From positions 1 through 50,653 of the forward strand of contig NZ_JHXH01000016.1 in assembly GCF_000621805.1 (NCBI RefSeq): a stretch of DNA of 50,653 nucleotides, in the 5' to 3' direction. Below are positions 1,144 to 26,951 of this stretch, one piece after another. How positions within the stretch are numbered: the first letter of the stretch is position 1; each line of letters opens with the position of its first letter. The position numbers and the translations under genes are program-made. This DNA is from Ruminococcus sp. FC2018. Lineage in GTDB: Bacteria > Bacillota > Clostridia > Oscillospirales > Ruminococcaceae. The notes below the pieces were generated by a model, which worked only from the letters and a program-made list of their open reading frames with translations, was not told where the DNA came from and ran no database searches.

Positions 1144-1154
1144 GAGGTAATGAT

Positions 1155-1712: not shown

Positions 1713-1722
1713 AACGGGGGCA

Positions 1723-5229: not shown

Positions 5230-5241
5230 CAGGAGCGAACG

Positions 5242-7806: not shown

Positions 7807-7816
7807 GGTAAGAAAA

Positions 7817-8260
7817 ATGTGTGATGTGATATGTAATATATTAATTGGTTTATTAAGTGGTATTGTTTCAAGTGGAATAGTTACAATTGCGTATGATAAA
7901 AAAACAAAGAAAATTGAGCATGAGCGTAATTTCAACGCTGACAAACAGGTGTATCATAGATATATTCTTAGTATAAGGAACGAACTGTTTTTTGCATATA
8001 AAAATAATGATTATGAAAACTTGATAAGGACAATTGAAAACGAACCGATTAGAGATAGTTTTACCAATTTAGATGATGAGAGTCATAAGAGCATAGGAGA
8101 GATTAGTAATTTTATTTCGCAGATGAAAGAAAGAATCCTATCAACAGGTTATTCTATGAAAGAAAAAGATTATAAAATCTATAACGGAAAACTATTTCAG
8201 TATAGTGTTCACGCATTGAAACTTGAGGAAGTGAAGGAAAATGGGAAAACTGATAAGTGA
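7817..8260 (+). CDS. small single-span membrane protein inserted between the PglX halves
   Basis: A 147-residue protein with one hydrophobic N-terminal segment (about residues 4-24, ILIGLLSGIVSSGIVTIAY) followed by a charged, helical cytosolic-type tail. I know no family for it. I take the ATG at 7817 as the start because GAGGT lies at 7805-7809; the longer in-frame extension overlaps pglX and lacks a ribosome site. The gene begins 10 bases after the stop of the first pglX half and overlaps the second half by 20 bases, so all three are probably co-translated. It is as AT-rich as the preceding recognition segment. It may have arrived with that segment and may anchor or modulate the split methyltransferase. 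This is inference only. Confidence 0.75.
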   Translation: MCDVICNILIGLLSGIVSSGIVTIAYDKKTKKIEHERNFNADKQVYHRYILSIRNELFFAYKNNDYENLIRTIENEPIRDSFTNLDDESHKSIGEISNFISQMKERILSTGYSMKEKDYKIYNGKLFQYSVHALKLEEVKENGKTDK

Positions 8261-9245
8261 CAAATACAAAGTATGGGAACAGGAATGCGAAGCCCGTTTC
8301 CAGAAGCTAAAGGCGAACGAGGAAGAACTCAACCGCATTTTTATCGACATTTACGGCTTGGGCGGCGAGCTGACACCCGAGGTGGAGGACAAGGACGTGA
8401 CCGTGCGCCGTGCAGACCTCACCCGTGAGATCAAAAGTCTTGTCAGCTACGCTGTGGGCTGTATGTTCGGGCGGTACAGCGTTCAGCGCAAAGGGCTGGT
8501 GTTCGCAGGCGGCGAGTGGGGCGATGCGTTCCGTGAAAGCGAGGAGTCTAAAAATCAGCAGGAGGAGGCGCTCTCCGAGGCGGGCAGGGCGCTGAATGTC
8601 AAGAAAAAAGTCTACGATGAGATATTCATTGACGGTGCCTGGGAAAAGTGTATTTTCCCGCCCGACAGCGACAATGTTATCCCGATCTGCGATGACGAGT
8701 ATTTCCGTGACGATGCAACCACCCGCTTTGTCGAGTTCGTTAAGGTCGTTTACGGCGAGGACACCCTTGAGGAAAACCTCAATTTTGTCGCTGACGCTCT
8801 CGGCACAAAGGGCGACGGCGCAAGGGAAAAGATACGCAGTTATTTTCTGAACGATTTTTACCCAGACCACTGCAGGATCTATCAGAAACGTCCGATCTAC
8901 TGGCTTTTCAGCTCGGGCAAAAAACACGGCTTCAAGGCGCTGATGTATATTCACCGCTACCGCCCCGACACCGTTGCAACGGTCAGAACAAACTATGTTC
9001 ACGAGCTTCAGGAGCGTTACCACACGCAGATAGAAATGCTGGAGTCTCAGCTCGTATCGGCATCGGGTGCACAGCAGGCACGCATCAAAAAGCAGCTGGA
9101 AAAACTGCGTACACAATCCGATGAGATCGCTGCTTACGAGCCAAAGGTCAAGCACCTTGCGGATTCGATGATACCGCTTGACCTTGATGACGGCGTAAAG
9201 AATAACTACGAAAAGCTTTCAGACATTCTGGAGAAAATCAAGTAA
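8241..9245 (+). CDS. pglX: PglX C-terminal part (split)
   Basis: These 334 residues match the C-terminal domain of BREX-1 PglX. The diagnostic run LKANEEELNRIFIDIYGL and the following LTPEVEDKDVTVRRADL lie near the N-terminus. Then come SYAVGCMFGRYS and a C-terminal helical segment with a coiled coil (about residues 250-300). It has its own ATG at 8241 preceded by AAGGA, inside the 3' end of the small membrane-protein gene. The two halves add up to 1188 residues, the size of an intact PglX. The base composition returns to the GC-richer level of the operon (35 of 60 at 8341-8400). It could reconstitute PglX by non-covalent assembly. Confidence 0.9.
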   Translation: MGKLISDKYKVWEQECEARFQKLKANEEELNRIFIDIYGLGGELTPEVEDKDVTVRRADLTREIKSLVSYAVGCMFGRYSVQRKGLVFAGGEWGDAFRESEESKNQQEEALSEAGRALNVKKKVYDEIFIDGAWEKCIFPPDSDNVIPICDDEYFRDDATTRFVEFVKVVYGEDTLEENLNFVADALGTKGDGAREKIRSYFLNDFYPDHCRIYQKRPIYWLFSSGKKHGFKALMYIHRYRPDTVATVRTNYVHELQERYHTQIEMLESQLVSASGAQQARIKKQLEKLRTQSDEIAAYEPKVKHLADSMIPLDLDDGVKNNYEKLSDILEKIK

Positions 9246-9260
9246 AAAGGGCTGGTTCAA

Positions 9261-11846: not shown

Positions 11847-11864
11847 TTGTTTGGAGGAATAACC

Positions 11865-13985
11865 ATGGATGCTCTTGACAGAAAGGTCATAGATACTTTT
11901 CCGGGGAAGATAGTAAGAAAGGATCTCACTGCGCTGATGAAGCGTGGTGCGAATGTGCCAACGTATGTGCTTGAATATCTTCTTGGAATGTACTGCTCGA
12001 CAGATGATGAGGAGATCATAAATAACGGCATCGAAAAGATAAAGAAAATTCTTTCCGAGAACTATGTCAAGCCCGATCAGAGTGAGTATGTGAAATACAA
12101 GATCAAGGAAAAAGGCCGCTACACGGTCATTGACAAGATAACTGTGCGTTTTGATGAGGATGAATGCAAGTACATTGCTGAGTTTACAAACCTTGATATA
12201 TCACCGTTTGAGGTGCAGTCTGACCTTGTTTCACATAACGAAAAGCTGCTTATCGGCGGTATCTGGTGCATAGTAAAGATCGAGTATAAGGATCCTGATA
12301 TGCAGCAGGAAGAAGAAACCTTCGATATCTTTGACGGCGACAAGCAAAAACAGAAAAGGGGCAGAAAAAAGAAGTCAAAGTACGGATCACCATTCAGCAT
12401 TGAGTCGCTAAGACCGATACAGATGGCAAATCTTGATCTTGATGAGATAATAAATGCAAGAAGCGAGTTTACAAAAGACGAATGGATATCTCTTATGCTG
12501 CGCTCCGCAGGATACGAGCCTGATGAGCTTGATGAAAAGCAGAAGCTGCATTATATGCTCAGATTTGTGCCGTTTATTCAGAAGAATTATAACCTCGTTG
12601 AACTTGGACCGAGGGGTACAGGCAAAAGCCATGTTTACAGCGAGCTTTCGCCGTTCTCGATCCTGATGAGCAGCGGACAGACGACTGTTTCAAATATGTT
12701 TTACAATCTGTCTGCACGCAGAGTCGGTCTGGTAGGTAACTGGGACTGCGTTGCTTTTGATGAGGTCGGCGGAATGAAAAAAGCTCCCGTTGATTTTGTT
12801 CAGACGATGAAAAACTACATGGCTAACGGTTCGTTTGCAAGAGGTTCTGAATCGATAGGCAGCGATGCATCTATCGCATTTGAGGGCAATACTTTTAGAA
12901 CAGTCGGTGAAATGCTGCGCACAACGAATCTGTTTGAACCGTTCCCGGATTCGTTCAATAATGACTCGGCATTCTTTGACAGGATACACGCATATCTTCC
13001 GGGCTGGGAGACACCGAAGCTGCGTTCAAGCCTGTTCACTCAGCACTTCGGGCTTATTTCAGACTGCTTTTCAGAGTATTGTCATGCTATGAGAAAGTAT
13101 GATTTCACCAACAGCTTCGGCGAGTATTTTGAGCTTAACCGCAACTTCAATACCCGTGATGAAACGGCTGTCAGAAGGACATTCTCAGGGCTTGCAAAGC
13201 TATTGTACCCTGATGAAGTTATGACCAAGGACGAGATGAAAGAACTGCTTGAGTATTCGATCGAATGCCGACGCAGAGTGAAAGAGCAGCTTCGTAAAAT
13301 GGAGCCTACCGAGTTCAGTGATGTAGGACTGGGATACATTGACCTGGAAACTAATGAAGAACATATAGTTTATCTTCCCGAAGAAGCAGACGGCACGCTT
13401 ATTCCGGAAGGCTTTGAAAAGCCCGGTTATGTATATGCTGTCGGAAAGTCTGTCGAGGATAAGGTCGGCATATACAGGCTTGAAAACAAGCTGCTTGACA
13501 GCGGAAGCGGAAAGCTCAGCTTCAAGAATGTTGAGGGCTTGGGAAAATCTCCGAAAGCAGTCAGGGAAAGCATTATTGCTGCATTCAATTATTGCGGTGA
13601 AACTTATGCTAATCTGGTCAGAAACAGATTCGCTGATTACGATTACAGCCTTTTCTTCAATGACCTTCAGGGAAAGGGTTCAAGTGATGAGCTGTCAGTT
13701 GCAGAGGTCGTTGGGCTGTTTTCGGCACTCGCTAACCGTCCTGTTATGCCTTCAACTATAATCTGCGGCAAGGTGGTAATGTCGGGCAGCATGATGCCGC
13801 TTACAAGTGATATCAGCGAGATATTTGTTGCCTGTGCAAATGCAGGTGCAAAGAGGATCTTTATGCCTGACGATTTCAGGGATAAGTATGACACTCTGCC
13901 AGAAAGAATAAAAAACGAGATAAAGGTCGTCTTTTATACGTCGCCGCTGGATGCGGCTAAAAAAGCACTCGGAGTTGATTATTGA
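11865..13985 (+). CDS. brxL: BrxL, Lon-like AAA+ protein of BREX
   Basis: A 706-residue BrxL, the AAA+ ring-forming DNA-binding protein that defines type 1 BREX. The N-terminal DNA-binding region includes DRKVIDTFPGKIVRKDL. A basic linker (KQKQKRGRKKK, about residues 163-173) leads to the P-loop GPRGTGKSH near residue 249 and the Walker B-like VAFDEVGGM near residue 300. The C-terminal Lon-like domain aligns around MSGSMMPLTSDISEIF, but I see no lysine where the Lon catalytic lysine would fall, so protease activity is doubtful. The start is the ATG at 11865 behind GGAGGA; the open frame from 11847 has no ribosome site. The stop overlaps the next ATG by one base. Confidence 0.93.
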   Translation: MDALDRKVIDTFPGKIVRKDLTALMKRGANVPTYVLEYLLGMYCSTDDEEIINNGIEKIKKILSENYVKPDQSEYVKYKIKEKGRYTVIDKITVRFDEDECKYIAEFTNLDISPFEVQSDLVSHNEKLLIGGIWCIVKIEYKDPDMQQEEETFDIFDGDKQKQKRGRKKKSKYGSPFSIESLRPIQMANLDLDEIINARSEFTKDEWISLMLRSAGYEPDELDEKQKLHYMLRFVPFIQKNYNLVELGPRGTGKSHVYSELSPFSILMSSGQTTVSNMFYNLSARRVGLVGNWDCVAFDEVGGMKKAPVDFVQTMKNYMANGSFARGSESIGSDASIAFEGNTFRTVGEMLRTTNLFEPFPDSFNNDSAFFDRIHAYLPGWETPKLRSSLFTQHFGLISDCFSEYCHAMRKYDFTNSFGEYFELNRNFNTRDETAVRRTFSGLAKLLYPDEVMTKDEMKELLEYSIECRRRVKEQLRKMEPTEFSDVGLGYIDLETNEEHIVYLPEEADGTLIPEGFEKPGYVYAVGKSVEDKVGIYRLENKLLDSGSGKLSFKNVEGLGKSPKAVRESIIAAFNYCGETYANLVRNRFADYDYSLFFNDLQGKGSSDELSVAEVVGLFSALANRPVMPSTIICGKVVMSGSMMPLTSDISEIFVACANAGAKRIFMPDDFRDKYDTLPERIKNEIKVVFYTSPLDAAKKALGVDY

Positions 13986-16630
13986 TGGACGTTTACAAGT
14001 GCATAGCCTGCGGTGAAGAAAAGCAGAGCGATACGCCCTGCAGCTGCAGTATCTGCGGATTCACAATGTATAAGACTCCGTATGACAGAAAAGATCTCAT
14101 CATTTCGGAGATAAGAAGATATATTTATTCGTACTCTACCGATCCGATTAAAATGAATGAGCTGGAATTCCGTGGTCTCAAAGAGGCATTGACACGTTTC
14201 CCAAGCTACAGCGAAATAAGCAGGTTTGTTCACGATGCAGAAAAGACAGAGGTATTCATTGACCGTCTTAACAGGTCATGTGACCAGCTGAACGAGTATG
14301 TACACAAAAGCTATGAAAACAGTTTTGTTGCCGATCTTGACAAAGCAGAGGATCATATGATCGAAAACAAGCTTACTCTTGATGCCTTTTTTGATGTGCT
14401 TGGAAAGAGTTACGAAGTAAAGGATATTGAGCTGCCGAAAGTCGTTATGCACTATGTAGTGACGCCTTTTGACGAACGTGTAAGAAAAGCCGATGAGCTT
14501 TTTGAGCTGCAAAAACAGGTGATAGCAAAGCTGTGGAGGTTCATCAAGCAGAACAATCTCTTTGGTGAGAAGTCGTTTGCCTCAAAGAAGATAATGAAAC
14601 TCGGCAAGGATCCGCAGTGGGACGAGCTTTATTCCAAATGCAGGCAGGAACTTGAACGAGTACTTGAAAAAAGGTATATGGTGGATATATTTGATGATGG
14701 CACTGCAGAGATCGGTGAAATGCTCGGTGCGGTAATGAGTGCTGTCAATGTTATCATCAGCTCGGATATACTGCGGTCAAGTAAGAAGTATATTTTCAAC
14801 GGTGAAAAATGGCTTGGGCAGGATGAGTGTGAGCAGCGTATCAGCGAGTGCTTGAACAGCATATTTGCAGATGCAAGAGAGGTTGCAGACAGTGAGGATT
14901 TCTTAAAAGAAGAATCTGAGGATAAGCTCTTTGATATCTACAACGAGATGCTTGAAATGGATCCTAAAATGTATATGAAGCTTTACAAGGGCAAGCTGTT
15001 TGTAGGCAGGGCAGAGCGAAAACTCAACGAGCTTATCGGGCTTGATGTAATAAAGAACAACATTCAGAAGATAAAGGCATATGCGCTCGCAAATAAAAAT
15101 GATGAGAATTTCAACCTGCATATGTGCTTTTACGGAAATCCGGGAACTGGCAAGACGGAGGTCGCCCGCATTATTGCTGGAATACTGCACGAAAATGGTT
15201 TGCTGCCGACGGACAAGGTGATAGAAACAGACCGCAGCGGACTTGTTGGCAGATATATGGGCGAAACGCCGCAGAAAACTCTTGAGGTCATAGCCGCTGC
15301 AATGGGCGGTGTGCTGTTCATTGATGAGGCGTATTCGCTTGTGCCTGATGATAATGGACAGGATTACGGTCACGAGGCTGTTGCCACGCTTATAAAGGCG
15401 ATGGAGGATTTCAGAGGCAAATTCTGCGTTATCCTTGCAGGCTATAAGAACAAGCTCAACGAGATGATAAAAACCAATCCGGGTTTTCGTTCCCGCATTC
15501 AGTTCGAGCTTGATTTCCCTAACTACTCCCGTGAGGAGCTTGGCAGGATAGCAAAGATGATGTTCAGAAACAGAAAATATTCCATCAGTGATCCTGCTAT
15601 GGACAAGGTGCTTGATATAACTGATGTCAGGCGAAAGGATCCCAACTTTGCAAACGCAAGAGAGATCAGAAATATAATCGACCAGGTCGTTATGAACAAC
15701 AGCCTGCGCTGTATTGGTTCGGAGGAGCGCATTGTTGAGATAGTTGATGTCAACAAGTACATAAAGGATTCTGGCATTAATTTGCCGCTGACGAACGATA
15801 AGGTCAACAGGCGTATTCTCACAGCTGATGAGGAACTTGATGCTCTTGTCGGGCTTGACGCTGTCAAGCGTATGGTGAAAAAGATAAAGGCTTATGGAAA
15901 GCGTAACAAGGACAGCGCAGATTTCAATATGCACATGTGCTTTTACGGAAACCCCGGAACGGGCAAGACAGAAGTTGCCAGGATACTTTCACGGCTTTTG
16001 TACGATGCAGGTGTTCTGCCCGAAGCAAAACTGACAGAGACCGACGCACACGGTCTTATCGGCAAGTATGTAGGTTCTACTGCACCAAAGACGCTTGAAA
16101 AGATCAACGATGCTATGGGCGGTGTGCTGTTTATTGACGAGGCGTATGCACTGACTAATGACAGCAAGAGTGCAGAGTACGGCGACGAGGCAATATCTGT
16201 TCTGCTGAAAGAGATGGAAGACAAGCGGGGAAAGTTCTGCGTTATCATGGCAGGCTACAAAGACGAAATGACGGAGATGATAAGTACCAACCCGGGACTT
16301 GCATCACGCATTCAGTTCACGCTGGATTTTGAGGACTATACCCGTGAAGAGCTTGGTGAGATAGCCGTGAGGATGCTTGAAAGCAAGGGCTATGTCATCA
16401 GGGAGGATGCACTGAAGCTGGTACTTGACCTGACAGATCATTTCAGAAAGCAGGACAACTTTGCAAACGCACGAACAGTCAGAAATATACTCGATCAGGT
16501 TATAATGAACCAGAACCTGCGCACCGAGGACGAGGGCGGAAATGACATTATCCTCAGCGATGTGCAGGACTATATCACCGACGAAAAGATAGATCTTTCC
16601 AAGAACCAAACCAAGAAGATCGGGTTTTAA
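13985..16630 (+). CDS. zinc-ribbon protein with tandem CbbX/SpoVK-like AAA+ domains
   Basis: An 881-residue cytosolic protein. Cys6, Cys9, Cys19 or Cys21, and Cys24 form a zinc-ribbon-like N-terminus. A helical region of about 330 residues follows, then two AAA+ modules of the CbbX/SpoVK type, each with a full Walker A (FYGNPGTGKTEVA near residues 382 and 654) and Walker B (GGVLFIDEAY). The two modules share long runs of identical sequence, so they arose by duplication. CbbX-type enzymes remodel target proteins as hexameric rings. The ATG at 13985 shares one base with the brxL TGA, so translation is coupled to BREX. It is not a core BREX gene that I know of. I infer an accessory remodelling ATPase. 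Confidence 0.85.
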   Translation: MDVYKCIACGEEKQSDTPCSCSICGFTMYKTPYDRKDLIISEIRRYIYSYSTDPIKMNELEFRGLKEALTRFPSYSEISRFVHDAEKTEVFIDRLNRSCDQLNEYVHKSYENSFVADLDKAEDHMIENKLTLDAFFDVLGKSYEVKDIELPKVVMHYVVTPFDERVRKADELFELQKQVIAKLWRFIKQNNLFGEKSFASKKIMKLGKDPQWDELYSKCRQELERVLEKRYMVDIFDDGTAEIGEMLGAVMSAVNVIISSDILRSSKKYIFNGEKWLGQDECEQRISECLNSIFADAREVADSEDFLKEESEDKLFDIYNEMLEMDPKMYMKLYKGKLFVGRAERKLNELIGLDVIKNNIQKIKAYALANKNDENFNLHMCFYGNPGTGKTEVARIIAGILHENGLLPTDKVIETDRSGLVGRYMGETPQKTLEVIAAAMGGVLFIDEAYSLVPDDNGQDYGHEAVATLIKAMEDFRGKFCVILAGYKNKLNEMIKTNPGFRSRIQFELDFPNYSREELGRIAKMMFRNRKYSISDPAMDKVLDITDVRRKDPNFANAREIRNIIDQVVMNNSLRCIGSEERIVEIVDVNKYIKDSGINLPLTNDKVNRRILTADEELDALVGLDAVKRMVKKIKAYGKRNKDSADFNMHMCFYGNPGTGKTEVARILSRLLYDAGVLPEAKLTETDAHGLIGKYVGSTAPKTLEKINDAMGGVLFIDEAYALTNDSKSAEYGDEAISVLLKEMEDKRGKFCVIMAGYKDEMTEMISTNPGLASRIQFTLDFEDYTREELGEIAVRMLESKGYVIREDALKLVLDLTDHFRKQDNFANARTVRNILDQVIMNQNLRTEDEGGNDIILSDVQDYITDEKIDLSKNQTKKIGF

Positions 16631-16642
16631 GGAGGTAGGGAA

Positions 16643-19600
16643 ATGGGATTTGAGATTTCGAAAACCGGATTGCTAGCAAAGTATATCAAAGAAGACGATA
16701 CTCAGGATGTTGTTGTGCCTGAAACTATTAAAGGCATAGGAAAAGATGCATTTAAGGGTATTGAAGGGATAACCTCTGTAAAATTGGGAGCAAAGATCAA
16801 AAAAATCACGGTTTGGGGATTTATAAAATGCAGTGATCTGCTTGATATTAATGTCTCGAAGAATAATCCCAACTACTCCAGCAGAGATGGCGTCCTGTAT
16901 AACAAGGACGGCACGGTTTTGTTATTCATGCCGCAGGGAAGATCTGAACTTGTAATTCCGGAGGGCGTGGTTGAGATAGGTGACTACGCATGTTCATGTG
17001 CGTTCAAACTAAACAAGGTAGTTTTGCCAAGCACTTTGAAGACTATAGGAAAAGAAGCGTTTCTGCATTGTTCGTTTGAGCAGATCGCAATTCCCAAAAG
17101 CGTTGAAAGCATTTCTGAAAATGCATTTGCCGATTGTACTAAACTGAGAACAGTCAGAATAGATGCAAAACTTGAGGCTATCAGCAGCTATTCATTTGCA
17201 TTTTGCAAGAAACTCGAAGAAGTTAATATCCCTGAAAGTGTAAAAACTATCGATATAGGAGCATTTGACGGATGTAGTTCTCTTAAGTCTATCGTGTTCT
17301 CTGATGGCTTAAAAACCATAGGCCATTATGCATTTAAAAAATGTATTTCTCTTAAGTCCATTATTATCCCCAAGAGTGTGGAAAGAATTCAAAGTTATGC
17401 ATTTGAAAAATGCGTTTTTGAATACGATGATGTAGTATTCAAAAGCAATGAAACTGTTATGGAAATATGTGCTTTCCCTGATAGTGTATTGGATGAGTAT
17501 ACTCCAACAAAACTGGTGCATAGCCCGGATGAATTCATCGCAACACCCAGACCGCTGCTGGATCAATACATTACGAAAAGCGGTGTGCTCAAAAAAGTTC
17601 CTAAAAAAGCGCATAGGTGGCATCTGAAGATCCCTGAGGGAGTTAAAGAGATCGCTGCTGATGCTTTTTCCGGAAGTGCTATAATCCGTGATGTAACTTT
17701 CCCGACAAGTCTTACAAAAATAGGGGATCGGGCGTTTTCTGAGTGTGAAAACTTAAAAAAAACTATTTTTGCCAACGGCCTTGAAACGATCGGTGAGAGT
17801 GCATTCGAAAAGTGTTCTATTGTACTTGTTGAGCTTCCCAATTCGTTAGTTACTGTCGGCATGAATGCTTTTTGTGAAAACTATAGTTTGCGTAAAGTAG
17901 TTGTTCCTTCAAGCGTAAAAACAATAGAAGAAGGCGCTTTTCACAGCAGCAGGTATTTGCAAAGGCTGTTACTGAGCGAAGGCATAGAAGAGATAGGACC
18001 TAATGCTTTTTATAATTGTCCTGTATTGGACACTATCGTTCTGCCTAAAAGTCTGACAAAAATCGGAGATAGAGCATTCTGCTATTTAGACCCCGATGAC
18101 GATGAGGTAATTAATGAATGGATAAACGCACCGATATACTGTTATGAAAACTCTGCCGGTGAGGAATATGCGATAAAGAATAATTTTGAACACAGACCTT
18201 ATGATGAAGCAGACAATGATCCATATTTCATAATCAAAGATGGAGTATTGGAACGGTACTTCGGTGAATCCGGAAAAACAGAGCTCATTATCCCCGCAGG
18301 TGTAAAGGAAATTGGCAGAAGTGCATTTTATAAATGTGATGAATTGGAACATATTATAATTCCAAATGGGGTAACCATTATCGGTGATGGCGCCTTTGCA
18401 GCTTGTTATAATCTATCCGAGATAACTATCCCAGAAAGTGTTGTTAGTCTTGGATTCAGGTCGTTTTCAGATTGTAGAAGGCTTGAAAGAGTAATAGTTG
18501 AAAATAACGATATTTCGATTGACGATACTGCATTTGAATTATGCTTTGAGCTGAAAGGGCTTACATATATCAATGATCCGGATGCTTATGAGCATAAACG
18601 AAAACTTGCATTGAGAAACCCTGAAACTGAGAATAATCAGACTGCTGCAAAAACAAAACAGCAAATTGTCAGCACATCAAAACCTGTGACACCTGTACCG
18701 GTTACCGAATCGGCAGAACCGAAAAAGTCGGAGCTTGTTAAGACAGCGGATACTGTTCATGCTACTGATGCCGTTAAGCCTGTTTCAGAGGTTAATCCCG
18801 ATTCGCCCAATCCCTCATCTCCGGCAGATGTCAAGCCCGCCGAGCCGGCTCCGGTGGAAGCCGAAGCAGCTGCGCCGCAGGTTGCTTCTGCCGAGTACAT
18901 ACCGCCTGTTTTCCCGCCGAGAATCAACGATCTGGAGATCAAGCGTTTTTATGAATATACCGATCCGTTTGCTGATGTTAACGGCAAGGAGTTTGCGGTA
19001 TTTATTGATGAATTCTATTATGCCTCATGCATAGATTATCTTAATCGCAATGGTGCAAAGGTCGTGCTTTGTCCTTCGGAGAACACGGATTACATTCTTG
19101 TTGAGCTTCCCAACTACCACAAGGCGTTTTATTATGCACACAAGGTCGGTTTCAAGGGCAAATTTACATTAGTGGATGATATTAAAAAGTATCTGACAGA
19201 AGAAGAAAGAGAGTACTACCATTACTGCGAAGATGTCGTTGGTTTCGAGTTCTCTTATGAACCAAAGATCGATTTTGAAAAAAGCTGCGAACTGATGTAT
19301 GCCGTGTATGATGTGGTGCTCGGTGAACTTAATAAGTGCAGAACCCGTCCGTATGGTGAAAGCATCAGGTATGTGACATCAATAACTTCTTGCTTAGGAT
19401 CCTCGAAACCGGATAATTCATACAACGATATGATCGACTGGATAAAGGGCAAAGAGGCTGATGAAAACTTTGATAAATATGAACAATTGATCTACGGTAT
19501 GTCGTTTGAGGACAAGCTTTGTGCGGTGATGTATGCACTTGCCCGTTACGAGTGGACGGGCTATGAAGATGACGAATCAATGTGCGATTTTGCATACAAG

Positions 19601-20605
19601 CTCACGCAGAAGTGGTTCAGAAAAAAAGAAAAGCCAAAGCTCAAAGAGAAGATCACTGAAGATGTAGCATATCTCAGATTAAAATTCAAAGATATTGACA
19701 AGAGTGAACGCTTCGATGGCATAGGCTTAAAGTATTATGTCCCTTATGTCGACCTGATGAGATTTGAGTGGGCAAAGGAAAGGCTTTGCGTTGTTGCAAG
19801 AACTGATAAGAAACAGAAAGTCCTTAAATCCGATGTGTTCTCCGCACAGCAGGGCGATGTGAACCTGTATGTTTGCTATGCTGCTAATCCCGAAAAAGAG
19901 GATTATTATTACCTCGACAACACTCAGCCGTTCCAGTGGCGAATGACTCCCGTGGAGATCTGGAACGCTGCAAAAGAAAAGATAGTGTGGCTGTCAAAAA
20001 AGGAAATGCCTGCAAACATTCCGGAGCGGATAGATACGAGCATTTCCGAGCTTGAGGAACTCGGTAAGAACGGCAGAAAGAAGATGCTTGACAAGATCAA
20101 AAAGCAGGCTGCACAGCTTGAAAAGTACACCCACAAGATAGATCCCGAAAGCGTGCCTTGCTTTGCTGACCTCGGTGCAGTCATCAAGGAACTTGAGGAA
20201 AACAAGGCAAAGATTCAGCAGCAGGCAGAAGAAGTTGAGGCGGAGCTCAGAGCGGTCGACAGCAAGCTGAGAGAGGCGTTTGATCAGCAAAGTGCACAGG
20301 TGCCGTCGGCAGTCAAGAAAAAGGATACCGAGGCGGAGATCGCAAGGCTGACAGATGAAAAGAGTCACCTTGGATTTTTCAAGGGCAAGCAGAAAAAGGC
20401 ACTGCAGGCGCAGATAGACGAGCTGAACGCACAGCTGCCGCAGCTCGACAGTGCGATAGCTGCAGAGAAACAGGATCAGAAAGCAAAGTACGACCCGATT
20501 ATTACCGAACTCGGCACGCAGAAATCGCAGCTCCAGCAAAGGCTGAAAGAACTCAAAGACCTTATCGCCGAGGCAGACAGTACGATAGCATCTCTGAAGT
20601 TTTAG
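16643..20605 (+). CDS. large LRR (BspA-like) protein with BRCT-like segment and coiled-coil tail
   Basis: A 1320-residue protein without signal peptide. Residues 1 to about 655 hold leucine-rich repeats of the LRR_5/BspA type (repeating pattern IGxxAFxxCxxLxxVxIPxSVxxI), in three blocks separated by short linkers. Residues about 660-760 form a Pro/Ala/Glu-rich linker. Residues about 775-850 (FAVFIDEFYYASCIDYL, then TDYILVEL and a closing helix) resemble a BRCT fold, which is tentative. An unrecognised domain follows, and the last 220 residues are coiled coil ending in DSTIASLKF. BspA-like LRR proteins are usually exported, so the cytosolic form is notable. GGAGG lies 12 bases after the AAA+ gene. 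I infer an intracellular sensor or scaffold for the module. Confidence 0.8.
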   Translation: MGFEISKTGLLAKYIKEDDTQDVVVPETIKGIGKDAFKGIEGITSVKLGAKIKKITVWGFIKCSDLLDINVSKNNPNYSSRDGVLYNKDGTVLLFMPQGRSELVIPEGVVEIGDYACSCAFKLNKVVLPSTLKTIGKEAFLHCSFEQIAIPKSVESISENAFADCTKLRTVRIDAKLEAISSYSFAFCKKLEEVNIPESVKTIDIGAFDGCSSLKSIVFSDGLKTIGHYAFKKCISLKSIIIPKSVERIQSYAFEKCVFEYDDVVFKSNETVMEICAFPDSVLDEYTPTKLVHSPDEFIATPRPLLDQYITKSGVLKKVPKKAHRWHLKIPEGVKEIAADAFSGSAIIRDVTFPTSLTKIGDRAFSECENLKKTIFANGLETIGESAFEKCSIVLVELPNSLVTVGMNAFCENYSLRKVVVPSSVKTIEEGAFHSSRYLQRLLLSEGIEEIGPNAFYNCPVLDTIVLPKSLTKIGDRAFCYLDPDDDEVINEWINAPIYCYENSAGEEYAIKNNFEHRPYDEADNDPYFIIKDGVLERYFGESGKTELIIPAGVKEIGRSAFYKCDELEHIIIPNGVTIIGDGAFAACYNLSEITIPESVVSLGFRSFSDCRRLERVIVENNDISIDDTAFELCFELKGLTYINDPDAYEHKRKLALRNPETENNQTAAKTKQQIVSTSKPVTPVPVTESAEPKKSELVKTADTVHATDAVKPVSEVNPDSPNPSSPADVKPAEPAPVEAEAAAPQVASAEYIPPVFPPRINDLEIKRFYEYTDPFADVNGKEFAVFIDEFYYASCIDYLNRNGAKVVLCPSENTDYILVELPNYHKAFYYAHKVGFKGKFTLVDDIKKYLTEEEREYYHYCEDVVGFEFSYEPKIDFEKSCELMYAVYDVVLGELNKCRTRPYGESIRYVTSITSCLGSSKPDNSYNDMIDWIKGKEADENFDKYEQLIYGMSFEDKLCAVMYALARYEWTGYEDDESMCDFAYKLTQKWFRKKEKPKLKEKITEDVAYLRLKFKDIDKSERFDGIGLKYYVPYVDLMRFEWAKERLCVVARTDKKQKVLKSDVFSAQQGDVNLYVCYAANPEKEDYYYLDNTQPFQWRMTPVEIWNAAKEKIVWLSKKEMPANIPERIDTSISELEELGKNGRKKMLDKIKKQAAQLEKYTHKIDPESVPCFADLGAVIKELEENKAKIQQQAEEVEAELRAVDSKLREAFDQQSAQVPSAVKKKDTEAEIARLTDEKSHLGFFKGKQKKALQAQIDELNAQLPQLDSAIAAEKQDQKAKYDPIITELGTQKSQLQQRLKELKDLIAEADSTIASLKF

Positions 20606-20640
20606 GAGGGATTTATTATGGGATTTAAGATTGAAAACGG
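20489..20640 (+). repeat. 152-bp duplicated block, copy 1
   Basis: This covers the last 39 codons of the coiled-coil LRR gene, its stop, the AGGAGG site and the first codons of the next LRR gene. It recurs at 24878-25029 with 146 of 152 bases identical and no gaps by my count. The duplication joins the end of one gene to the start of the next. Confidence 0.9.
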
Positions 20641-22360
20641 AGTAATGCTCGGATTTGATTTCATGGATTTGGCTGAAATAGCAGTGATCCCCGACGGTGT
20701 CACTCAAATAAAAGATGGTGCTTTCAGAGCATGCAAAACATTGACTAAAGTGGTGATACCCGCATCGGTTAAGACAATTTATAGTTCGGCTTTTGCAAAT
20801 TGTGATAAACTTAAAACTGTGGTTATAAGTGATGGGCTTGAGACGATTTGGGATAGAGCCTTTTACAAATGTCCATTGCTTGAAGAAATAACATTGCCTG
20901 ATACATTGAAAGAAATAGGTGATGAAGCTTTTTACAGATGTTCAGGTCTTAAAGAATTAAAACTCCCTGAATCATTGGTGAAAATAGGAGTATCCGCTTT
21001 TTCGGGCTGCTCAAGTTTAAAAGAAATAAGCATTCCTGAATCAGTTGCTGAAATGGGAGTTAGTTTTCTTGAGGGCTGCACAGAACTAAGGTCTGTCGAT
21101 ATAAGATGCAATACTGATGATATAACATATTGTGCTTTCGAGGGATGTAAAAACCTTGTAAGTGTTAATATGCCCGAGAGTGTCAAGGAGATAGGGCAGG
21201 GTGCTTTCAGGGATTGTTCGAGTCTATCAGATGTAAAACTACCTGATGGTCTTATTAGGATAGATTTTCAGGCTTTTAAGTCTTGTCTGGGACTAAAGAG
21301 CATTGTACTGCCCGAGGGATTAACTACAATTGATGGTAATGCATTTGAAGATTGTGAAAACCTTGAAGATGTAGTTTTCCCTAAAAGTGTCACTGACATC
21401 GGAGAGCATGCATTTTATAATACTAAGTTTTTAAAGAAGGGAACTCCTTTAACGCTGGTAAACGGCATATTGATAGGCTGTAATGCAACGGGTGACACCC
21501 TTGAGATCCCACAGGAAATTAAGGAGATCCCAGCCAGGTTTTTTGCACATGAAAAAATCAAAAAGGTGATCATTTCAGGCGCAACAAAGAGGATAGGGGG
21601 CAGCGCATTTGAAGGATGCGAATTGGAAGAGGTCGTTTTGAATGAGGGCGTGCAATACATAGGCACTTGTGCTTTCATGTCGTGTAAAAACCTTAAACAA
21701 ATAGATCTGCCTAAAAGCATTGTAAGTATAGATAACTGGGCGTTTTCAGGAACAAGTATTCAAAGAGTTGTTGTCCCGCCAGATGTCGATTTTCCTGACA
21801 ATGGAAGCGCTGTGTTCCCAAGATGTCTTGAATATATTGAATTACACGAATCGATAAAAGAAATCCCGGAAGAACTGTTTGTATCAGGTGCAGCAACTGG
21901 TAACGGTATGGGTGAGAAATACGCACTGAAGACGATTGTAATGGCTCTGGATTGCACGTTTGATTCCGATGATCCGAGTGAGTGCTTATGTTATAATTAC
22001 TATCCAGATCAGAGCATCAGCTTGAAACATACAAAGGAATCTTTAGAGTGTGACATTATTCTGACGAAGGGTAATATCAGAGTTAAACTTCCGTATGTTG
22101 CAAAGTGGAGCAGTAAGGATCCTAAAAACGCACTCCTGCTTCTTTGTGAAACAGATCACGATAAATGCAAAGAATTATTTGACTCTGTTAAAAACACAAA
22201 GCTTAAACCAGCTCTGGCAGTAATGCTGGCCCTTAAAGGAATGGATGATATCGTTGCAGACTACATGGCTGCAAAGTCCAAGGTAATTATTGATATGCTG
22301 ATGGCTGATGATTATTTTGATACGATCTACGCTATAAAAGAAAAGGGACTGATAAAGTAG
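20618..22360 (+). CDS. cytosolic LRR protein with helical C-terminal domain
   Basis: A 580-residue protein that starts MGFKIENG, like the other LRR proteins of this locus. LRR_5/BspA-type repeats occupy about residues 15-430, with the recurrent IxDGAFxxCxxL pattern. The C-terminal 150 residues are non-LRR, helical, and end in a segment with ALKGMDDIVADYMAAK and IYAIKEKGLIK. There is no signal peptide and no membrane segment. AGGAGG lies 7 bases upstream, 12 bases after the previous stop. It is followed 27 bases later by the 31-residue microprotein gene, a pairing repeated at 25007-26359. I infer a sensor or scaffold; the ligand is unknown. Confidence 0.8.
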   Translation: MGFKIENGVMLGFDFMDLAEIAVIPDGVTQIKDGAFRACKTLTKVVIPASVKTIYSSAFANCDKLKTVVISDGLETIWDRAFYKCPLLEEITLPDTLKEIGDEAFYRCSGLKELKLPESLVKIGVSAFSGCSSLKEISIPESVAEMGVSFLEGCTELRSVDIRCNTDDITYCAFEGCKNLVSVNMPESVKEIGQGAFRDCSSLSDVKLPDGLIRIDFQAFKSCLGLKSIVLPEGLTTIDGNAFEDCENLEDVVFPKSVTDIGEHAFYNTKFLKKGTPLTLVNGILIGCNATGDTLEIPQEIKEIPARFFAHEKIKKVIISGATKRIGGSAFEGCELEEVVLNEGVQYIGTCAFMSCKNLKQIDLPKSIVSIDNWAFSGTSIQRVVVPPDVDFPDNGSAVFPRCLEYIELHESIKEIPEELFVSGAATGNGMGEKYALKTIVMALDCTFDSDDPSECLCYNYYPDQSISLKHTKESLECDIILTKGNIRVKLPYVAKWSSKDPKNALLLLCETDHDKCKELFDSVKNTKLKPALAVMLALKGMDDIVADYMAAKSKVIIDMLMADDYFDTIYAIKEKGLIK

Positions 22361-22387
22361 CACAGTGCTTTCAGGAGGTGTGGTATT

Positions 22388-22483
22388 ATGCTCAAAGGAA
22401 TACTCGTAATAGTTATCGGTTTTCTGCTGGTCAAAGCATTTTGCGATACCGTGCTTGATATCTTCTTCGGAAAGAAAAAGTAG
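22388..22483 (+). CDS. 31-residue membrane microprotein, copy 1
   Basis: ATG at 22388, preceded by AGGAGG at 22374-22379, opens 31 codons: a hydrophobic span (MLKGILVIVIGFLLVKAF), then CDTVLDIFFGKKK. It would insert once in the membrane, with a basic C-terminus. The same 31 residues are encoded at 26264-26359 with five base differences (codons 2, 12, 15, 26 and 27), all synonymous. That pattern shows selection on the peptide, so this is a real gene although far below normal annotation limits. It directly follows an LRR gene in both copies. It may be a small toxin-like or channel-modulating peptide (inference). Confidence 0.85.
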   Translation: MLKGILVIVIGFLLVKAFCDTVLDIFFGKKK

Positions 22484-22529
22484 TTGTTATTTCATAAGAA
22501 CAAGAAATCAGATATAAAGGAGTAAAATT

Positions 22530-22810
22530 ATGCATCGGAAATTTACTATCACAATAGACAAGAATTCACCTCAGGCACTTTTATTTATGAAGGAATACAT
22601 AATACCGTATATTACTTTCCTAGACGAATCAATTAGAAAAATCACACTGATTTTGTGACCAATTCCAGCAGCTCAGGTAGATTCTTGGAAATCATGCGTG
22701 AATTTATCCCATTGGATGAGATTGGCGAGGATAAGGCAAGGAAACTATTTGATTCAGATATGGAAAGCGGTAAGTTTACATGTAATGTTTATATGGATAG
22801 AACGGATTAA
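22530..22810 (+). pseudogene. small frameshifted gene of unknown family
   Basis: ATG at 22530, behind AAAGGAGT, opens 42 codons (start MHRKFTITIDKNSPQALLF) and stops at 22656. An adjacent frame continues without stop from 22655 as VTNSSSSGRFLEIMREF to a TAA at 22808-22810 (ending CNVYMDRTD). The two parts look like one protein of about 93 residues broken by a single frameshift near 22650. A sequencing error or a genuine pair of tiny genes cannot be excluded. I do not recognise the family. It sits between the microprotein and the channel gene. Confidence 0.5.
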
Positions 22811-22871
22811 TGCAATAGCGTTAATGACGAAAAATGAAAATGAATAGGCGTATCAATAGGAAGTGTAAGAC

Positions 22872-24818
22872 ATGAAGAAAAAATACTCACTGAAGCAGCG
22901 GATGCAGTTTCGTTTTGACAGCATTATGTCAAAGGGAGTCGCATCGAAGATTGGACTTCTGATAGTCATAACCCTGATCTTTATACTCATAATGGGTATA
23001 CTTGCGGCAATCATTCTTGGCGATCTGCATGGCCTGCTGCCGTGGACAAGCTGGAAAACGCTGATGTATACTCTCGATCCGGGAAATCTTGACGGTGCTG
23101 AGGGACGTCATCTGTACATTGCAATGATGCTTGTTGCAACGTTGTATGGTTTGTTCTTTACGGCAGTGCTGATAGGTCTCATAAACGATGCTATCTCACA
23201 GAAAATGGATTCGCTGGCAAGGGCGAAAGGTGCGGTCATTGCGGAAGGGCATACGGTTATTCTTGGTTTCAATGAGTCGACTTTCGTTATACTCTACGAG
23301 CTGATCGAGGCTAATCTCAACCAGAAGGAAAAGCAGGCTGTGGTCATTATGGACGATGTCGATCCTATCGAGATGAGAGAACAGGTCAACGCATTTATCA
23401 AGCAGAACAAGCATTCAAAGAATACGAGGATCTATTGCCGCAACGGAAGCATCTATGACCGTGAGGATCTTGAAAAGTGCTCGGTGCTGACAAGCCGTTC
23501 AATAATCATCAATACGCAGAATGATTTCGATACTACAAAAGCGATCCTTGCCTGCACAAGCATTCTCAACGAGCATCCTGAGGATTCCGATTCGTACACG
23601 GTCGCAGTTGTTTATGATGCGAAGAACGAAGATGCTGCTCAGATAGCAGGCTGCGATGGACGTAAAAACGACAGACTTGTAATGCTGCCGCTTCAAAAGA
23701 CTCTTGCGAGGATAGCTGTGCACACCTCACGTCAGCCCGGTATCTCAAAGGTTTTTACCGAAGTGTTCAGTTATGATGATAACGAGTTTTATATTCTTGA
23801 CAAGGACGATTGCTTTGACAGACTGTATGGCAAGACAATCACGCAGATCAATCTTATGTTCAAAGCTGCAATTGCTATTGGCGTTTACAACGAGCGAAAT
23901 GGAATCGTCATTGACGATCCGGAAAAGGTAATGTTTGAAAACGGTGACAAGCTGATATTGCTTCAGGATGACGATGATCCTCTTGCGACTGAGGATAATG
24001 AGTTTTCACCTCAGATTTTTCATGGTATCAAGATGAAACCTGCTGAAAAATGCAAATGCCTTGTTATCAGAGCAAGACCTATCACAAACGATGTCCTTGT
24101 GGAGCAGCCAAGCTATTTCAGTCCGGGTTCGAGCGTTATTCTTGCAGGTGAAAAGCAGAACATAGACGAGTATCTCTCACCGGATGTCAGAAAAGTATTT
24201 GATGATACTGATATTGATTTTGTCGTTCATGAGGTTGAACATCTGCATACAAAGAAATGCATCGACGAACTGATGCAGCAGTATCTGCCCGATTATGTGC
24301 TTATTCTTTCGGGTGCGGTCACTGTCGAAGAGATGGAAGCCGAGGACGAAGAAACGATCAAGATCCTGCTTTATCTCAGAGAGTTCCAGAGGGTAACGGG
24401 ACACAAGTTCTTTGTTACCAGTCAGCTCAACAGCGTCAAGAACCAGAAGCTTGCCAATGTGACCGGTACAGATGACTTTATCATCAGCCGTCACATCGCC
24501 GCATTGCTGATGACGCAGATATCGCAGACAAGAGAGCTTAGGCAACTGTTTGATGTGTTGCTTGAAAGCGAAGGATATGAGTTGTACATGGAAAAGGCTT
24601 CGGGTTTTGTGCCGTTGGGGGTACCTGTTGATATCTATTCAGCTGTAAATGCTGCATCTAAAAAGCAAAGGGTATTTGTAGGAATCAGACAGATGAAAGA
24701 TGGGAAATACCTTGATCCTGATGTCAACCCGCTGAAATATGAAAACGGGGAGCTGAAAAAATACATATTTGGTGAGCAGGACTACTTTATTGTCCTTGCT
24801 GAGGAACTATTGGTTTGA
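22872..24818 (+). CDS. CASTOR/POLLUX-type ion channel with RCK-like cytosolic domains
   Basis: A 648-residue membrane protein. Two transmembrane helices (about residues 26-50 and 82-108) flank a short pore region, and large cytosolic Rossmann-like RCK/TrkA-N domains follow, starting at AEGHTVILGFNESTF (about residue 125). This is the layout of the CASTOR/POLLUX cation channels known from plant nuclear envelopes and of their bacterial relatives. The cytosolic part would gate the pore upon ligand or ion binding. GGAAG precedes the ATG by several bases. It lies inside the BREX-linked operon between two LRR-microprotein pairs. I infer that it could be the effector that depolarises the cell. Confidence 0.82.
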   Translation: MKKKYSLKQRMQFRFDSIMSKGVASKIGLLIVITLIFILIMGILAAIILGDLHGLLPWTSWKTLMYTLDPGNLDGAEGRHLYIAMMLVATLYGLFFTAVLIGLINDAISQKMDSLARAKGAVIAEGHTVILGFNESTFVILYELIEANLNQKEKQAVVIMDDVDPIEMREQVNAFIKQNKHSKNTRIYCRNGSIYDREDLEKCSVLTSRSIIINTQNDFDTTKAILACTSILNEHPEDSDSYTVAVVYDAKNEDAAQIAGCDGRKNDRLVMLPLQKTLARIAVHTSRQPGISKVFTEVFSYDDNEFYILDKDDCFDRLYGKTITQINLMFKAAIAIGVYNERNGIVIDDPEKVMFENGDKLILLQDDDDPLATEDNEFSPQIFHGIKMKPAEKCKCLVIRARPITNDVLVEQPSYFSPGSSVILAGEKQNIDEYLSPDVRKVFDDTDIDFVVHEVEHLHTKKCIDELMQQYLPDYVLILSGAVTVEEMEAEDEETIKILLYLREFQRVTGHKFFVTSQLNSVKNQKLANVTGTDDFIISRHIAALLMTQISQTRELRQLFDVLLESEGYELYMEKASGFVPLGVPVDIYSAVNAASKKQRVFVGIRQMKDGKYLDPDVNPLKYENGELKKYIFGEQDYFIVLAEELLV

Positions 24819-24877
24819 AATAAGGGCTGCAATGTCTTTAAATATTATTTATTATTAAGGAAAAAACTATGGCATAA

Positions 24878-25029
24878 TACTACCCGATCATCACCGAACT
24901 CGGCACGCAGAAATCGCAGCTTCAGCAAAGGCTGAAAGAGCTCAAAGACCTTATCGCCGAGGCAGACAGTACGATAGCATCTCTGAAGTTTTAGGAGGGA
25001 TTTATTATGGGATTTAAAATTGAAAACGG
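24878..25029 (+). repeat. 152-bp duplicated block, copy 2 (coiled-coil relic)
   Basis: Copy 2 of the block at 20489-20640. The 3' end of the large LRR gene's coiled coil survives here as an orphan of 39 codons, in frame with an upstream ATG GCA TAA (24869-24877), so it is cut off by a stop. It leads into the start of the third LRR gene. This relic shows that an LRR-microprotein block was copied together with the tail of the gene before it. Confidence 0.9.
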
Positions 25030-26227
25030 GCTTTTGCGTAAGTATATTAAAACACCCGGAGAAACATCGGTTGTTGTTCCGAATGGAGTAATAAAAATAG
25101 CTCATGGTGCATTTGAATACTGCGCTGGAATTAAATCTGTTTCACTGCCGGATAGCCTTCTGGAGATAGGTGGTAAGGCTTTTTGCGGATGCAAAAAGCT
25201 GACGAAGATCAATATACCTAAATGCGTAGAAAGAATCGGGACAGATGCATTTGATGAAACAAAATTGATTGAAGACCTGAGAAAACAGGCTTATAAGGAT
25301 TATCAGGATAATAAGGTGGATGTTCTTTACTGTAGAACTATCATAATAGATTCGGCTTTGATAGAGGTAAAACTGCCTATGTATGGCTCGACCATTGGGA
25401 ATGTATATAAAAGAGAAGAAGTTGTTTTCATAGTACCTGAACATATTACTTGTATTGCAGACAATGCTTTTTATGATATGGAACGCAGAGAAACACCCAA
25501 GGTCGTATCTATAGAACTTCCAAAGGGATTAAAGAGGATCGGTTATTCATCATTCAATAAGTGTAAGAGTTTAACACATATAGACATACCTGAAGGAGTA
25601 ACATCAATTTCTGATTGTGCTTTCTTAGGATGTGAAAAGCTTGAAAGCATAGATCTTCCACAGGGGCTTGAGGTGATTGGAGAAGCGGCGTTCTCAGGAT
25701 GTGCAAAACTGCGTTCTGTTGATATTCCTGATTCGGTAGTACGCATTGATTCATCGGCATTCAGTGGATGTAAAATGCTTAAAAATGTGAATTTCAACCG
25801 TGATATACCATGTGTCTTTGCAGATTCTTTTGACGGAACTAAGTGGATAGAAGATATGAAAAAGAAGTCCGACTTTGTTGTGCTTGGTAAAACTCTTTTG
25901 TGTTCATCTCAATCTGTCACGGGTGATCTTGTTATTCCGGAAGGTGTTACTGTAATTGCGGGTCGATCGTTCTTGGGCGCAGAGATCACATCGCTGACTA
26001 TACCAGAGGGGGTTACAACAATATGTGATCAAGCATTTCAGGATTGTGAAAAGATCACAGAACTAAAGCTGCCAAGCACTTTGCGAAAAATAGGAACGAG
26101 TGTGTTTTTGCGATGCAATAATGTCTCGAAGCTTGTCATTGCTGATAATCCGTATCTGGAACTGAAAAACGATCAGTTGTATAAGAAGGATTCAAGAAGA
26201 GTCAAGATACTAACGCTAAAAAAATAA
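25007..26227 (+). CDS. third cytosolic LRR protein
   Basis: A 406-residue protein starting MGFKIENGLLRKYIK, homologous at its N-terminus to the two LRR proteins upstream. BspA/LRR_5 repeats fill most of the chain (for example CAFLGCEKLESIDLPQGL at about residues 205-222). A non-repeat insert of about 60 residues (90-150, with NKVDVLYCRTIIID) interrupts the repeats. There is no signal peptide and no extra C-terminal domain. AGGAGG precedes the ATG, duplicated from the second LRR gene. It is followed by the second microprotein copy. It diverges strongly from its paralogue outside the first residues, so the pair is not a recent identical duplication. Confidence 0.8.
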   Translation: MGFKIENGLLRKYIKTPGETSVVVPNGVIKIAHGAFEYCAGIKSVSLPDSLLEIGGKAFCGCKKLTKINIPKCVERIGTDAFDETKLIEDLRKQAYKDYQDNKVDVLYCRTIIIDSALIEVKLPMYGSTIGNVYKREEVVFIVPEHITCIADNAFYDMERRETPKVVSIELPKGLKRIGYSSFNKCKSLTHIDIPEGVTSISDCAFLGCEKLESIDLPQGLEVIGEAAFSGCAKLRSVDIPDSVVRIDSSAFSGCKMLKNVNFNRDIPCVFADSFDGTKWIEDMKKKSDFVVLGKTLLCSSQSVTGDLVIPEGVTVIAGRSFLGAEITSLTIPEGVTTICDQAFQDCEKITELKLPSTLRKIGTSVFLRCNNVSKLVIADNPYLELKNDQLYKKDSRRVKILTLKK

Positions 26228-26263
26228 CGGATGGATATGGATGCTGATAAGGAGGTATCATCT

Positions 26264-26359
26264 ATGCTTAAAGGAATACTCGTAATAGTTATCGGTTTCC
26301 TGCTGGTTAAAGCATTTTGCGATACCGTGCTTGATATCTTTTTTGGAAAGAAAAAGTAG
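26264..26359 (+). CDS. 31-residue membrane microprotein, copy 2
   Basis: ATG at 26264, preceded by AAGGAGG at 26250-26255 region, encodes exactly the same 31 residues as 22388-22483: one membrane span, then CDTVLDIFFGKKK. All five base differences between the copies are silent. It is the last gene before the terminator at 26373. Its repeat pairing with an LRR gene suggests the LRR protein and the microprotein act together. Confidence 0.85.
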   Translation: MLKGILVIVIGFLLVKAFCDTVLDIFFGKKK

Positions 26360-26372
26360 CATACATTAAAAG

Positions 26373-26398
26373 CAGTCGGGGAAACCCGGCTGTTTTTT
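26373..26398 (+). terminator. intrinsic terminator ending the BREX/LRR/channel unit
   Basis: The stem CAGTCGGG/CCCGGCTG (one T-G wobble) with a GAAA tetraloop is followed by six T. It is the first clear terminator after the leader hairpin at 461-504, which supports a single transcription unit of about 26 kb. Confidence 0.88.
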
Positions 26399-26497
26399 GA
26401 TATCTCACATGATGAGTTTGTCCGCTTGACAATGGGGCGGTACTATGGCACTATGAGAATGAAAAGCATTTATTAACGCATTTAAGGAGAAACCATT

Positions 26498-26930: not shown

Positions 26931-26951
26931 CTTGGAAAGGAGGCGATTGGC

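Follow-up and report, generated by a model that had tools for sequence, protein, structure and literature searches.

Bacteriophage exclusion (BREX) systems of type 1 have six core genes, and their anti-phage mechanism, the role of BrxL and the role of the C-terminal domain of PglZ are still unsettled. We examined a BREX-1 operon and the genes behind it in Ruminococcus sp. FC2018 (contig NZ_JHXH01000016.1, C16 among the 32 contigs of a 2.40-Mb genome); the whole stretch analysed, 50,653 nucleotides (nt), is called the window. All six core genes are present there in order. The locus differs from described BREX-1 systems by a seventh gene at brxL, which encodes a tandem AAA+ ATPase of the CbbX/SpoVK type, by a pglX made of two open reading frames (ORFs) with a variable ORF, and by a slot of leucine-rich repeat (LRR) genes. 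We put at about 50% the probability of our reading of the region, namely a lineage-specific BREX-1 extension in which BrxL and the CbbX-like AAA+ protein would form an exchangeable unit acting on partners with a PglZ-type domain, the LRR proteins being adaptors or cargo; the AAA+ gene would then be an added constant component of one BREX lineage. An earlier note on this DNA had instead taken the AAA+, LRR, channel and peptide genes for one system fused to the BREX operon.

Among solved structures, both halves of the AAA+ protein are nearest to CbbX, the red-type Rubisco activase. It differs from CbbX, SpoVK and EccA in its two ATPase domains per chain, its Cys4 N-terminal region and its BREX context. 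CbbX remodels Rubisco by pulling on its C-terminal tail. To our knowledge, such a protein is not among the core BREX genes; it is also absent as a core gene from the searched parts of a 2026 survey (PMC12839542), whose main text holds no LRR, leucine, CbxX, SpoVK, ion channel or Lamassu and, in those parts, mentions MoxR-vWA systems only in other connections. No report of an AAA+ gene beside brxL was found in literature titles and abstract openings on BREX with CbbX, SpoVK or leucine-rich repeat, or on BrxL with SbcC or PglZ, subscription papers and supplements being outside this scope. A partial precedent is CoCoNuT, as presented in the relevant passages of PMC11090510: in a restriction setting it likewise has an LRR element with a tandem SpoVK-family ATPase, but as one fused protein in which, according to that paper, a single ATPase domain is active. 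The window proteins scanned gave no McrB-specific match, the McrB GTPase motif as such not being searched for. The MoxR-vWA ternary conflict systems, as outlined in part of PMC7159879, resemble a locus of the related genome G222 (contig C11), where orthologues of two window LRR genes and the peptide stand beside a vWA gene, assigned by the family criterion, and a MoxR-like gene whose bpMoxR match is weak and below the cut-off. A vWA gene also follows the LRR genes in the related locus L048, and MoxR-like genes (N-terminal likeness only) occur in L048 and L049. The window differs in that its AAA+ protein is of the CbbX type, and nine proteins scanned (13982-28169) gave no vWA or bpMoxR match.

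The ATG of the AAA+ gene overlaps the brxL stop codon by 1 nt (TGATG). CbbX was the best PDB match for each half of the protein (7.5e-55 and 2.5e-48; 3zuh, 3syk), and both ATPase domains were complete with intact Walker motifs, which together with AAA_lid_6 places the protein in the CbbX/SpoVK family. The SpoVK, CbbX and EccA models all matched: the NCBIfam cut-off of the CbbX equivalog was not reached (435.2 vs 459.25 bits) and that of SpoVK was passed (456.7 vs 422.95 bits), with a whole-protein score covering two domains. Four N-terminal cysteines (C7, C10, C22 and C25) were invariant in 13 out of 13 aligned orthologues, as in the zinc ribbon that the earlier note had read there. Equally invariant (13/13) were Y425 and G427, at the position of the YIG loop of CbbX, which we take to be its pore loop. 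In the AlphaFold model (mean predicted local distance difference test score, pLDDT, 82; predicted template modelling score, pTM, 0.40) the AAA+ domains are reliable as modelled and their mutual arrangement is not.

When GTDB species genomes were scanned with three aligned AAA+ orthologues, 25 loci came out (L numbers; G numbers denote genomes), from gut or rumen Clostridia where record titles tell, with one record labelled Gastranaerophilales. By tblastn, brxL lay directly upstream of the AAA+ gene in 17 of them, including L060, L063 and L066; the other eight (L054, L056, L058, L062 and L067-L070) are truncated genes or distant matches, and the genes upstream in L058 are not BREX-like. The junction was measured in the window and 14 of the 25 loci. 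The others were set aside because the contig starts within the gene (L054, L056 and L062), the 5' flank is short (L060 and L063), the gene lacks its 5' part (L058), the BREX genes are decayed (L066) or the match is distant or partial (L067-L070). All 15 AAA+ starts lay at -11 to +35 nt relative to the stop codon of brxL (13 loci after collapsing three near-identical copies). Near-identical copies aside, the brxL genes of this clade were 67-74% identical to that of the window; those of other members of the order, about 41-46% identical, had no AAA+ gene in flanks of up to 1.5 kb, and within the genus the two genes stood side by side in 4 out of 29 genomes. The AAA+ protein served as bait, so a brxL of this clade without it could escape notice. 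Pairwise AAA+ and BrxL distances were correlated (r = 0.88 over 15 loci), and none of 9,999 permutations was as high. These comparisons indicate that brxL and the tandem AAA+ gene are inherited together, the AAA+ gene being the constant part and the LRR and other genes behind it the swappable one. The earlier note had tied the AAA+ protein to BREX while placing it outside the known core; both points find support, the gene being a fixed neighbour of brxL in this BREX lineage and not among the core genes known to us. Matching plasmid records numbered 29, all with <60% identity to the AAA+ protein and none covering >80% of the query; the 15 matches listed had 36-38% identity and alignments beginning at residue 346 or later. 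In viral contigs, five stretches matched a pattern and none encoded an AAA+ relative. As for unusual layouts, the BREX locus of L066 is decayed, with brxA, brxC, pglX, pglZ and brxL in fragments and the AAA+ gene shortened, and pglZ-brxL-AAA+ occurs without brxC or pglX in the upstream stretch read, and with no BrxC match in the genome, in L105 (reverse strand) and L057.

The PglZ C-terminal domain is given as a beta-sandwich in section 18 of PMC12839542 and as a beta-barrel in a passage of PMC12205998; sections 18 and 38 of the former propose that it recognises invaders. A profile of 18 PglZ C-termini was searched against 2,700 ORFs of >=60 amino acids (aa) from the window and related loci. 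It matched PglZ and only four other proteins (1e-11, 3e-8, 1.5e-7 and 9e-7), all encoded beside brxL-AAA+, and reversed and shuffled ORFs gave no match. In L049, the gene right after AAA+ encodes a 1191-aa LRR and coiled-coil protein ending in this domain, and the gene in this position in L052 encodes a 669-aa coiled-coil protein with the same ending; both retain the last residues of PglZ, (N/D)DF(D/G)F. The other two are SMC/Rad50-like proteins encoded upstream of brxL in L051 and L064, with last residues less alike, while a related 881-aa protein of L059 was found by blastp only. Counting the latter, PglZ or another protein with this C-terminal domain was present in 15 out of 15 loci examined. 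Only L049 has an LRR protein that carries the domain; the LRR proteins of the window do not. As a control, the window PglZ C-terminus matched 101 of 72,556 plasmid records; among the 40 matches listed, 33 were annotated as pglZ, four were unannotated and three otherwise named (alkaline phosphatase, or TIGR02687/TIGR02688). The L052 copy of the domain gave six matches in these records (five pglZ, one TIGR02687/TIGR02688). The plasmid matches listed thus included no clear second carrier outside brxL-AAA+ neighbourhoods. That unrelated proteins encoded beside brxL also end in this domain suggests a role other than invader recognition, that of a docking domain.

An SMC-like partner, brxL and AAA+ occur together in L051, L059 (SMC-like gene split into two ORFs) and L064, and the upstream genes read there are not BREX-like. 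The 1497-aa partner in L051 matches LmuB (2e-15), a likeness to Lamassu that concerns this locus and not the window; unlike Lamassu, the protein ends in a PglZ-type domain, brxL and AAA+ follow, and no LmuA match was found. The SMC-like label also rests on Rad50/SMC models far under the cut-off and on AAA_23 just under it (L064). L051 (SMC-type) and L052 (BREX-type) are sisters in the AAA+ tree (100/100); the brxL-AAA+ pair seems to have switched partners. These loci suggest that BrxL may be able to function outside BREX. The L051-type operon comprises four genes, for a 323-aa protein, an SMC/LmuB-like ATPase with a PglZ-type C-terminus, BrxL and the AAA+ protein (L103:10273-19998, L104:7786-17668, and L102 on the reverse strand), possibly a separate defence system; in L064 the protein of the 323-aa type has an extra DUF4357-like N-terminal part.

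Behind the AAA+ gene, the window changes character. Its nt identity to G209 and G216 was 97.9% from pglX2 into the first codons of the LRR slot; past this point the contents diverge, and identity with relatives returns in LRR3, the peptide and the hairpin. The slot of G216 holds a 621-aa LRR gene, LRR3 (94% identical) and the peptide, and that of G212 one LRR gene. G209 has an 852-aa protein, an LRR3-like gene and the peptide; the end of the 852-aa protein corresponds to the C-terminal half of LRR1 (95% nt identity over 1.8 kb), and its N-terminal half is unrelated and without an LRR match. The window has in addition a block LRR2-peptide-channel, bounded by a 158-nt repeat whose sequence points to a cassette boundary formed by insertion or duplication. 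The AlphaFold model of the LRR1 constant half was poor apart from the coiled coil, and a BRCT-like fold suspected there by eye was dropped (no Pfam support, mean pLDDT 48). LRR genes were present within the next few genes after AAA+ in 6 of the 14 loci with visible downstream DNA, and the AAA+ gene had none nearby in the other 8; L064, which ends inside the AAA+ gene, is not in this count, nor is an LRR gene ~9 kb downstream in L059; of the loci counted, L050 and L055 show only ~2.5 kb downstream. Another gene lies between AAA+ and the LRR genes in L048, and the 852-aa protein takes this place in G209. The six LRR-bearing loci make up one side of a branch in both the AAA+ tree (98/97) and the BrxL tree (98/94). 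The LRR_5 matches numbered 72-154 in four of six genomes, 33 in G594 and 18 in G000, and because they are common in the relatives, adjacency of LRR and AAA+ genes alone is weak evidence there. Orthologues of LRR2 (93% nt, 89.6% aa identity) and LRR3 (95% nt, 93.8% aa) were found in the MoxR-vWA-LRR locus of G222, a congeneric genome with no match to brxL (E <= 1e-30) or to this AAA+ gene (E <= 1e-60). LRR2, LRR3 and the peptide thus occur both in BREX and elsewhere. To judge from these sequences, the slot behind brxL-AAA+ takes up LRR genes and the 31-residue peptide, joined by a channel in this strain alone, and it shows that sensor-like genes move between BREX and MoxR-vWA loci.

The two peptide copies encode the same protein, as the earlier note had said, and differ at five codons, all synonymous; each has a good ribosome-binding site ahead, and a single residue varies among four copies from three genomes. 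Because of the synonymous changes and the single variable residue, the peptide, a conserved hydrophobic segment with a basic tail, is probably translated. Its profile matched 28 of 394 genomes at E <= 0.05 and six at E <= 1e-5 (G000, G197, G209, G215, G216 and G222); the weak matches (E above 1e-3 in 22 of the 28) look like chance. One G222 copy follows the LRR2/LRR3 orthologues beside the MoxR-like ATPase and the vWA protein, and others follow a 369-aa gene and a Sel1-repeat gene. A second copy in G216 lies behind a similar 369-aa gene, with genes for type I restriction and GmrSD close by. A homologue (42% identity) follows an LRR gene in L049, and the same scan found none in L048 and G212. 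The strong matches in G222, G215 and G197 and the second place in G216 rule out a BREX-specific peptide. The 369-aa gene itself had no Pfam match (L139:6141-7440; L140:3594-4824).

The channel belongs to the Castor_Poll_mid family by its score and shares with CASTOR/POLLUX channels PF06241 and an RCK domain, with CASTOR (3e-24) and DMI1 as PDB matches; it differs from them in its place next to BREX, seen in this strain alone. A tblastn search (E <= 1e-3) of the 25 related loci gave no match, and phages held no relative. In a family sample it matched 4 of 197 genomes including its own; the other three (of 196) were distant matches of 23-26% identity, with no window-like BREX genes in the flanks read. 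A channel that is a core component is ruled out by these two results.

Under our reading of the region as a BREX-1 extension, the AAA+ protein may form a two-tier ring, be recruited via its Cys4 N-terminal region and, by analogy with CbbX, have BrxL or the C-terminal tail of proteins with the PglZ domain as its substrate. It would remodel complexes of BrxL with such proteins (PglZ; elsewhere LRR/coiled-coil or SMC-like ones), a step that would serve to load, release or reset BrxL together with its partners on phage DNA. The LRR proteins may be interchangeable, serving as adaptors or sensors that recruit targets, and the peptide and channel may be accessory cargo outside the core. BrxL was pulled down with other BREX proteins, according to a passage of PMC12205998. 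As the PglZ domain also occurs in BREX without AAA+, BrxL would be the likelier docking site, with the AAA+ protein as remodeller of the complex. Several points weigh against this proposal. The aromatic residue of the second AAA+ loop varies (Y, F or V), and common descent with no contact between the two proteins also predicts the AAA+/BrxL distance correlation. The PglZ C-terminal domain, present also in BREX-1 systems that lack AAA+, may bind BrxL, another protein or DNA in a way unrelated to AAA+. A profile of seven canonical PglZ proteins recovered three carriers (1e-6, 8e-6 and 2.5e-5) and not that of L052, and the 18-row profile recovered neither the L059 protein nor the window LRR proteins. 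The non-PglZ carriers were drawn from AAA+-selected neighbourhoods, so their adjacency is partly built in, which the plasmid control answers only in part. BrxC, found in 10 of 19 genomes tested, was not found in those of L051 and L064, and this absence is weak evidence because BrxC was also missed in genomes that carry PglZ (L050, L053 and L057 among the nine without a match). If the AAA+ protein were instead a chaperone dedicated to BrxL, helping only with its assembly or loading and not acting on PglZ-domain proteins, brxL as its only constant direct neighbour and the strong correlation of their divergence would be accounted for; we consider this unlikely, given PglZ or a PglZ-domain protein in all 15 loci. 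More tentatively, BrxL and the tandem AAA+ protein could be a portable restriction engine with the PglZ C-terminal domain as a plug for any carrier (PglZ, an LRR/coiled-coil or an SMC/Rad50-like sensor), a possibility we hold clearly short of even odds; in that case several systems, BREX among them, would share the brxL-AAA+ core, and the SMC-like/BrxL/AAA+ operons with no detectable BrxC would be a separate, undescribed defence system.

The genes of the slot allow two further explanations. That the LRR genes, peptide and channel are independent passengers of a recombination slot, with only the AAA+ gene belonging to BREX, would fit the sharp homology breakpoints against G209 and G216 at the slot start, the 158-nt flanking repeat and the abundance of LRR_5 in relatives (18 to 154 matches per genome); the clustering of the six LRR-bearing loci in both trees and the PglZ C-terminal domain on the adjacent LRR protein of L049 make it doubtful. 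The system put forward in the earlier note has LRR proteins sensing infection, the AAA+ protein remodelling them, and the channel and peptides acting on the membrane, so that a failure of BREX ends in growth arrest or cell death; read as an abortive back-up that works by membrane depolarisation, it appears quite improbable. The genes do share one strand and are tightly spaced, with a single hairpin closing the series; LRR genes come after AAA+ in six loci that form one group, and the hydrophobic, basic-tailed peptide has a homologue after an LRR gene in L049. Yet the channel is matched in none of the 25 related loci, the AAA+ gene lacks nearby LRR genes in 8 of 14, and LRR2, LRR3 and the peptide stand in G222, where brxL and AAA+ were not found. 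A single fused system is not supported, in view of the last finding, the unrelated genes that the peptide follows elsewhere and the unmatched channel. From the gene-neighbourhood comparison that the note had called for, AAA+ emerged as staying with brxL, and the association of LRR genes with AAA+ held for the one group of six; the unrelated contexts that it had named as refuting were in part encountered, for LRR2, LRR3 and the peptide.

Table 1. Coordinates of the features in the window.
Feature	Position	Strand	Basis or remark
BREX-1 core operon	541..13985	+	Pfam, PADLOC, NCBIfam matches
brxA, brxB, brxC	starts 541, 1140, 1723	+	
pglX (two ORFs)	5242-7806 and 8241-9245	+	
pglZ	9261-11846	+	
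PglZ C-terminal domain, aa 727-861	11439..11843	+	alignment and profile search; ends DDFDF
brxL	11847-13985	+	homologous start ~11865
Tandem CbbX/SpoVK-type AAA+ ATPase, 881 aa	13985..16630	+	ATG 13985; Pfam AAA x2, AAA_lid_6 x2; CbbX best PDB match
LRR1, 1320 aa	16643..20605	+	BspA-type LRR N-half and constant C-half; LRR_5 2.5e-119
LRR1 constant C-terminal half	18806..20605	+	predicted long coiled coil at end; aa 739-1320 aligned, 96% aa identity in G209
LRR2, 580 aa	20618..22360	+	LRR_5
31-residue hydrophobic peptide, copy 1	22388..22483	+	
Small ORFs resembling one interrupted gene	22530..22810	+	by eye
CASTOR/POLLUX-type ion channel, 648 aa	22872..24818	+	PF06241 Castor_Poll_mid 5e-18, 65.4 bits vs cut-off 26.7
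158-nt repeat, 95% to 20483-20640	24872..25029	+	LRR1 3'-end remnant and start of next LRR gene
LRR3, 406 aa	25007..26227	+	LRR_5
31-residue peptide, copy 2	26264..26359	+	same protein as copy 1
Intrinsic-terminator-like hairpin with U tract, closes region	26368-26397	+	fold and sequence

The genes 3' of BREX-1 follow on the same strand in the order AAA+, LRR1, LRR2, peptide, channel, LRR3, second peptide copy and hairpin (Table 1), so that all those named in the earlier note, and the 1-nt overlap, were found where it had placed them. Its reading of no terminator until about 26373 also agrees with the closing hairpin (-19.9 kcal/mol, 50-nt slice folded). A simple terminator scan of both strands of 13000-29000 missed this hairpin and gave 13 sites vs 11.7 expected, with two terminator-like sites on the + strand of 13985-26368, both weak; the region up to the hairpin has no convincing terminator after brxL. 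An Rfam search of the window matched nothing. By eye, the first residues of the small ORFs after the first peptide copy are similar to a stretch of the 448-aa ORF that follows the peptide in G222:C11. Downstream of the region, an AAA_14/DUF4143 ATPase (26910-28169) is 99.8% identical in G209 and was not seen at the equivalent place in G216.

A WYL regulator (BrxR-like) directly follows AAA+ above the cut-off in L055 and L059 and with a weak match in L053, and lies one gene further in L049. As for pglX (5242-9245), a methyltransferase-part ORF and a C-terminal-part ORF enclose the variable one. The gene is likewise split in G209, G212, G216, L048 and L055, each with other middle ORFs, of which one looked phosphoribosyltransferase-like and two seemed by eye to have a HEPN-like motif; those scanned had no Pfam match. 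The gene is fused in L049 and L052. Finally, R. flavefaciens XPD3002 and E. ruminantium FB3002 have two pglX-like genes within a single BREX operon (L106:6982-13243; L108, reverse strand).

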